Part shown: one piece after another, positions 12,609 through 12,952 of the stretch | Numbering within the stretch: the stretch's first letter is position 1 | Layout of the letters: every line of letters begins with the position of its first letter | Assembly (NCBI GenBank): GCA_020831485.1 | Contig: JAFIGG010000005.1 | Location: 1-64,000, forward strand | DNA length: 64,000 nt | Direction: 5' to 3' | Source: Opitutales bacterium | Lineage (GTDB): Bacteria > Verrucomicrobiota > Verrucomicrobiia > Opitutales > Oceanipulchritudinaceae | The notes under the pieces: generated by a model | What the model saw: only the letters and a program-made list of their open reading frames with translations | The model's database searches: none | Told to the model about the DNA's origin: nothing | Translations under genes and position numbers: made by a program

Positions 12609-12662
12609 AAAGCTTAAAGAAAAAAGGGTTAATTCGGAATCAAAGACAAATAAAAACGCGAT

Positions 12663-12679
12663 TGCCGCCCCTGGCGGCA
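12663..12679 (-). terminator. Putative attenuator terminator in the leuA leader
   Basis: On the minus strand, arms TGCCGCC and GGCGGCA close a three-base loop. After AT-CGCG comes a five-T run (12657-12653), all about 45 bases before the leuA ATG. No gene lies upstream on this strand, so a terminator here only makes sense as a leader element. A second hairpin at 12695-12710 (arms CTCCCC and GGGGAG) overlaps the leader-peptide stop. CCCCTG of that hairpin (12708-12703) can pair instead with CAGGGG of the terminator (12673-12668), which allows mutually exclusive folds. Confidence 0.6.
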
Positions 12680-12701
12680 GGACAGGAAATAGTGCTCCCC
12701 C

Positions 12702-12755
12702 TCAGGGGAGAAGTCGTAGCGTCGCTTCGATTCGAATATGCTTTATGAAAGCCAT
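12702..12755 (-). CDS. leuL: Putative leucine leader peptide
   Basis: An 18-codon frame reading MAFIKHIRIEATLRLLP then TGA. Three of the last five residues are leucine (codons CTA, CTT, CTC), and they lie in or just before the 5' arm of the first leader hairpin. The stop is 22 bases before the terminator hairpin. The predicted transcription start is only about 4 bases upstream of the ATG, so initiation may be leaderless. The layout matches amino-acid attenuators of the leu/his/ilv type. Translation is unproven; a chance ORF of this size is possible, so confidence rests on its position between promoter and terminator. Confidence 0.5.
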   Translation of the reverse strand: MAFIKHIRIEATLRLLP

Positions 12756-12765
12756 CTTCAGGCGA

Positions 12766-12794
12766 AAGATGTTGCCCCTTGTCCCAGCTGTCAA
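12766..12794 (-). promoter_or_regulatory. Putative sigma-70 promoter of the leuA leader
   Basis: A perfect TTGACA (minus strand, 12794-12789) is followed after 17 bases by CATCTT (12771-12766), a weak -10 that keeps the key A and final T. Transcription would start near 12759, just upstream of the putative leader peptide. Confidence 0.4.
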
Positions 12795-12845: not shown

Positions 12846-12952
12846 ACAGCATTCGAACGGAAGGCATGGCTTTGAATGATCTTCACCGCTCTGTTGGGAG
12901 CCAGCGTCTCTAGAAGTTGCACGGATCGCTTCCATTTGCTATACGTTGCCGT

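Follow-up and report, generated by a model that had tools for sequence, protein, structure and literature searches.

In enterobacteria, leuA is preceded by leuL, a short leader ORF in which rare Leu codons are clustered, with hairpins after it. In the actinobacterial LEU element, a run of Leu codons pairs with the Shine–Dalgarno box of leuA within a pseudoknot, and mutagenesis in Streptomyces was inconsistent with classical attenuation (PMC1262725). A literature search revealed no description of such a leader in Verrucomicrobiota, which is consistent with the preliminary description of the present locus, whose author knew of no case in this phylum; the search did not cover the broad 2010 survey of Lopatovskaya et al. 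(cited in PMC4833913), and priority is uncertain. Here, the leuA leader was analyzed in a window of 64,000 nt from an Opitutales bacterium (contig JAFIGG010000005.1). The comparison of sequences indicates that leuA is probably controlled by a leucine leader peptide, and this reading is well supported because Leu-rich ORFs are found in relatives, the control codons are rare, the distance to the promoter is kept, and a comparable leader precedes ilvB.

Leader elements upstream of leuA

The leuA gene is located at 12608-10917 on the minus strand, as are all leader elements, and its product is a 2-isopropylmalate synthase of the yeast/actinobacterial type (TIGR00970, 759.8 bits, above the cut-off). 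Because the divergent neighbor gene starts near 12917 on the plus strand, the leuA promoter is placed between the two genes. The elements of the leader are as follows.

12794-12789, minus strand: perfect −35 box TTGACA; CTTGACA is kept at the same position in 75 leaders.
12771-12766, minus strand: weak putative −10 element CATCTT, with 3/6 consensus matches and a spacer of 17.
About 12758, minus strand: predicted transcription start, with a predicted 5′ UTR of ~3 nt.
12755-12702, minus strand: leader ORF of 17 codons, from the ATG at 12755 to the TGA at 12702, encoding MAFIKHIRIEATLRLLP; similar LLP or LRL leaders occur in relatives.
12748-12740, minus strand: TCATAAAGC, a perfect 9-bp complement of GCTTTATGA (duplex p = 0.0066, including the helix between 12737-12725 and 12645-12632).
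12710-12695, minus strand: hairpin 1 (P1), CTCCCC-TGAG-GGGGAG, −9.9 kcal/mol; the same hairpin occurs in several families of the order.
12679-12663, minus strand: hairpin 2 (H2), TGCCGCC-AGG-GGCGGCA, −13.0 kcal/mol; f1 and f11 relatives have a GC hairpin at this position.
12656-12652, minus strand: T5 run, 6 nt (ATCGCG) past hairpin 2.
12613-12605, minus strand: leuA start-codon region GCTTTATGA, predicted by folding to be able to pair with the leader ORF.

The preliminary description had reported a perfect TTGACA box ahead of leuA, a 17-residue ORF ending in LRLLP, and a hairpin whose 5′ arm is built from the last codons of the ORF (Leu-Leu-Pro), and all three are present. The competing pairing of CCCCTG with CAGGGG that it had proposed is also possible, in a long alternative hairpin of −20.3 compared with −22.9 for both hairpins together. 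Its terminator-like hairpin with a T5 run was borne out in part: hairpin 2 and the T5 run exist, but a 6-nt gap separates the run from the stem. The 5′ arm of hairpin 1 consists of the Leu-Pro codons CTC CCC, and the stop codon lies in its loop. The Leu codons of the ORF are CTA, CTT, and CTC, of which CTA and CTT are rare in the leuA gene of the window. The minimum free energy of the whole leader was significant against chance (p = 0.002). The ORF alone is unremarkable, with three Leu in its last five sense codons and a Leu density below the threshold of the survey described below. By sequence inspection, no Shine–Dalgarno-like sequence was seen ahead of the leuA of the window. A search of the leader against Rfam, with gathering and relaxed thresholds, returned nothing relevant, and a T-box or known riboswitch was rejected as its identity for lack of an Rfam match.

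Leu-rich leader ORFs across Verrucomicrobiota

Genomes from the same family, from the order, and from the phylum, together with 80 named records (including Puniceicoccaceae, Pelagicoccus, Coraliomargarita, Persicirhabdus, and others), supplied the leuA genes, and 222 leuA upstream regions were compared after removal of duplicates. A leader was scored when an ORF of 8 to 45 codons starting with ATG contained at least 4 Leu within 10 residues and lay no more than 330 nt from leuA. Such an ORF was present in 45% of the 222 regions, which share descent so that the counts are non-independent events, compared with 5.1% of dinucleotide shuffles; the leaders still form several kinds in many families. 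The controls with Ser and Arg differed little from their shuffles (8.1 versus 6.5% and 11.3 versus 8.1%, respectively), and the excess for Ala and Gly (10.4 versus 3.5% and 7.7 versus 2.0%) was far below that for Leu. When the same Leu test was applied to the regions upstream of trpE and hisG in the family, 0 of 17 and 0 of 14 were positive, and a search for tryptophan and histidine leaders ahead of these two genes yielded none.

Five kinds of leader were distinguished. Kind A leaders (the window, f1, f5, f8, f11, f15, f20, and f21) end in LLP at a CTCCCC/GGGGAG hairpin. LLRLTKLDxLLLG characterizes kind B (Pelagicoccus and DG1235), and LLLGLATR characterizes kind C (Verrucomicrobiales-like, f29). 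Kind D leaders (f14) contain ALRLT/S, with a covarying hairpin directly after the ORF, and kind E leaders, with LLLGLLLLAGND, belong to distant members of the phylum (f39 and f46, another class by kinship). A CGACTTA segment (Arg-Leu codons) is nearly invariant and common to kinds B and D (L214, L215, L223, L228, and other f14 leaders); its counterpart in the window is CGACTTC. A leader-like ORF before leuA in family f17, beginning WIFDGRN, was excluded, as it was judged to be the end of the upstream gene.

These relatives support the earlier view of a Verrucomicrobiota-type genome with a leucine leader peptide at leuA. The test set in advance, that relatives should not lack the ORF or its Leu codons, was mostly passed; the exception is that no Leu-rich ORF was present in about half of the regions overall or in about half of the f1 genomes for which DNA upstream of leuA was available. 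In family members that lack the leader (L006, L007, L009, L010, L013, and others), TTGACA is found 36 to 44 nt from the leuA ATG itself, a spacing that suggests that the attenuator was lost and that the leuA mRNA is leaderless.

Codon use, promoter spacing, and covariation

The codons CTT and CTA account for 49% of the Leu codons in the leaders compared with 18% in the leuA genes; in the leuA of the window, CTG, CTT, and CTA make up 51%, 2%, and 5% of the Leu codons, respectively. In 75 leaders, the ATG lies 34 to 45 nt from the first base of TTGAC, CTTGACA is conserved, and T is favored at position +28. From this distance, the 5′ UTR is predicted as given above, and the leader mRNA is therefore expected to be nearly leaderless. 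The almost leaderless leader peptide of the preliminary description thus reappears in relatives, and the position of the promoter points to a conserved trait.

The hairpin of the kind D (Opitutaceae-type) leaders contains six pairs with two-sided changes (11 such cells compared with 2.7 when shuffled, 0/500), and covariation offers weak support for the kind B hairpin. In the kind A leaders of f11, no covariation of hairpin 1 beyond that of shuffles was detected, and these hairpins vary too little to be informative; z-scores from dinucleotide shuffles likewise have little power for so short a hairpin. Among the Pelagicoccus-type leaders, the segment after hairpin 1 reads AGGGGC or GGACGCA (L100, L102, L112, and L121 versus L061, L137, L142, and L151). 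As read by eye, its partner 30 to 40 nt before leuA seems switched as well (GCCCCT or TGCGTC), possibly in compensation.

A Val-rich leader precedes ilvB in the same genome

The ilvB gene of the same genome (51314-53038, G000:C59, L281) is preceded by the Val-rich leader VVVVPVVVVSVV. In its sequence, MNLVHSIATVVVVPVVVVSVVSC, the Val codons GTCGTCGTCAGC pair with GCTGACGGGCGA as one arm of a hairpin, and TGGATTTTTG, with a T5 run, comes next. The ilvB leaders of relatives in the family are V-rich and continue into perfect intrinsic terminators, such as CCCCCGCTGGTAAGACCGGCGGGGGTTTTTTG in L287. Given these Val leaders and terminators, control of branched-chain amino acid genes by leader peptides is very probable in the family of the window.

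Termination and switch tests

For the switch test, the RNA free of the ribosome was folded at each codon position, with the loop of the candidate terminator as the 3′ limit. The fraction of the terminator 5′ arm held by upstream RNA was recorded, and shuffles of the upstream sequence served as the control. Equilibrium folding with the complete terminator was dropped as a switch test, because the terminator nearly always wins. For hairpin 2 of the window, the arm was held at 0.27 with the ribosome on the Leu codons versus 0.16 at the stop, and averaged over the three Leu codons this is no significant switch relative to shuffles (p = 0.54). The held fraction reached 0.65 to 0.70 only when the ribosome had stalled no further than CTA, the first Leu codon, and was 0.02 to 0.20 once the ribosome had passed it. 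The other f1 leuA leaders showed no significant switch either (p 0.14–0.80). Six leuA leaders from more distant members carry a strong terminator (five are of kind E, and the sixth, L258, comes from another family). A switch was predicted in every one of them, with p values of 0.000 to 0.047, and the arm was held at 0.67 to 0.97 with the ribosome on the Leu codons and at 0.03 to 0.44 with the ribosome at the stop. Five leaders of f39 and f46 (L245, L246, L252, L260, and L265) have the appearance of textbook leuA attenuators, with a Leu run, an antiterminator, and a strong terminator. For the ilvB leaders of the family, L276 gave p = 0.013 and the other three gave p values of 0.09 to 0.20.

A terminator pattern scan reported none in the leader of the window, and hairpin 2 with its offset T5 run is, judged by its sequence, a poor intrinsic terminator; clear terminators occur in some relatives. 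Across the leaders, terminators were scored in 52% compared with 30% of shuffles, a modest excess from a generic score that finds many matches in shuffles too. A T-rich run comes after hairpin 1 in f20, f5, and L203 (L052, L053, L174, L203, and L034); in the window, this hairpin is followed by CACTATTTCC, with no U-run. Of the traits of leader-peptide attenuators, a short ORF rich in codons for the product, rare control codons, and control codons within a hairpin arm were all found. The ribosome-position-dependent antiterminator was not found in the window, and this result counts against the classical subtype only, because not every leader-peptide system has an antiterminator.

How the leader might control leuA

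Transcription would start a few bases ahead of the leader ATG, and the mRNA on which ribosomes load would be nearly leaderless. Under a shortage of leucyl-tRNA, the ribosome would stall at CTA, CTT, or CTC, the codons that make up or adjoin the 5′ arm of hairpin 1, and the stalled ribosome would alter the downstream RNA fold and raise leuA expression. With ample leucine, the ribosome would reach the stop codon in the loop and depart, and a repressive fold would form. That the sensor ORF and its Leu codons exist and are conserved is well supported by the comparison of leaders, and we infer that the leader responds to leucine in the proposed direction. The repressive fold of the window has roughly an even chance of ending transcription, through hairpin 2 or hairpin 1; it may instead, with less likelihood, mask the start codon of leuA in a duplex with the leader ORF, and an action of another sort, for example through Rho, is rather unlikely.

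The leucine attenuator of the preliminary description is supported as leader-peptide control, but hairpin 2 as a classical switchable terminator is not supported in the window, given the failed switch and the offset U-run. Classical transcription attenuation, in which hairpin 2 and the T5 run terminate and hairpin 1 or the CCCCTG/CAGGGG fold competes, is a tentative reading that falls somewhat short of an even chance. It is favored by the strength of hairpin 2, by the nearly iso-energetic alternative fold, by the release of the hairpin 2 arm beyond the first Leu codon, and by the textbook versions among distant members of the phylum; within the same family, L016 carries a hairpin with A-TTTTT. 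However, the T5 run begins 6 nt past the stem, the switch averaged over the Leu codons is no better than that of shuffles, and U-runs past hairpin 2 are not conserved in f1 and f11. A terminator formed by hairpin 1 itself, which holds the control codons and has the stop codon in its loop and whose formation a stalled ribosome would prevent, would agree with the T-rich runs after hairpin 1 in f20, L203, and f5 and with the same layout in the ilvB leader of this genome, but the missing U-run in the window makes it improbable here.

If the leader ORF does pair with the start of leuA, translational control is suggested. Codons 3 to 6 of the ORF, not the Leu codons, would form the perfect 9-bp duplex UCAUAAAGC:GCUUUAUGA over the start codon. 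A second helix of 13 bp with one bulge would join ATTCGAATCGAAG (12737-12725) to CTTTGATTCCGAAT (12645-12632), so that the beginning of the leader ORF would cover the leuA region between −45 and the start codon until a translating or stalled ribosome opened the pairing. Among 114 leaders, none had a more extreme pairing (z = −4.7, with 33 of 5000 shuffles as good), but the pairing was picked after the fact, from one genome of its genus, and the leaders on average show little of it (mean z of −0.26, 9% below −2). With the LEU element as a precedent (PMC1262725), translational control of leuA is conceivable but doubtful. Chance, with an ordinary short ORF and GC hairpins that happen to lie in a promoter region of 190 nt, would fit the window ORF taken by itself, which is short and has three Leu; it is highly improbable at this locus given the motif kept across many families, the rare-codon bias, the fixed promoter distance, and the Val leader at ilvB, and the same comparisons make a chance origin of the leaders of the phylum very unlikely.

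A speculative and rather unlikely generalization of leucine leader-peptide control is that Verrucomicrobiota have one leaderless leucine-reading ORF at leuA whose output was exchanged repeatedly, with an antiterminator and terminator in distant members, a Leu-codon terminator in some families, and sequestration of the start codon in the lineage of the window. If true, a single sensor would be combined with interchangeable transcriptional and translational outputs.

Comparison with known systems

The mechanism would be a textbook one, and its apparent wide occurrence in Verrucomicrobiota is the new part. Leader-peptide control of branched-chain genes would be extended to a large, little-studied phylum, where ~110 candidate leaders are spread over many families and ilvB has a parallel leader. 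Leaders with clear terminators, with codon-overlapping hairpins, and with no clear terminator, together with regions that have no leader, offer a natural series for the gain, change, and loss of attenuators, and the nearly leaderless leader ORF is a conserved, testable feature.

The window shares with the enterobacterial leu attenuator (leuL; Rfam leucine leader) an ORF with rare Leu codons before leuA and hairpins after it; it differs in having no Rfam match, another peptide, a nearly leaderless start, and a terminator and antiterminator that are only candidates. The LEU element is similar in its Leu-codon ORF before leuA, in leader RNA that can pair with the translation start of leuA, and in the lack of a clear terminator, whereas in the window codons 3 to 6 would pair with the start codon, rather than the Leu codons with the Shine–Dalgarno box. 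The ilv-leu attenuator of Staphylococcus aureus likewise has a Leu/Ile leader peptide ahead of branched-chain genes, but it controls ilvD and has a ribosome binding site and a terminator 52 nt past the stop (PMC5794164). The actinobacterial ilvB leaders (PMC1262725; ilvB-II, PMC10272879; Mycobacterium tuberculosis ilvB1, PMC13236596) resemble the window in codons that overlap a hairpin and in branched-chain control. They have U-run terminators, which the leuA leader of the window does not clearly have, and the ilvB leader of the same genome is of the same kind as these actinobacterial leaders.
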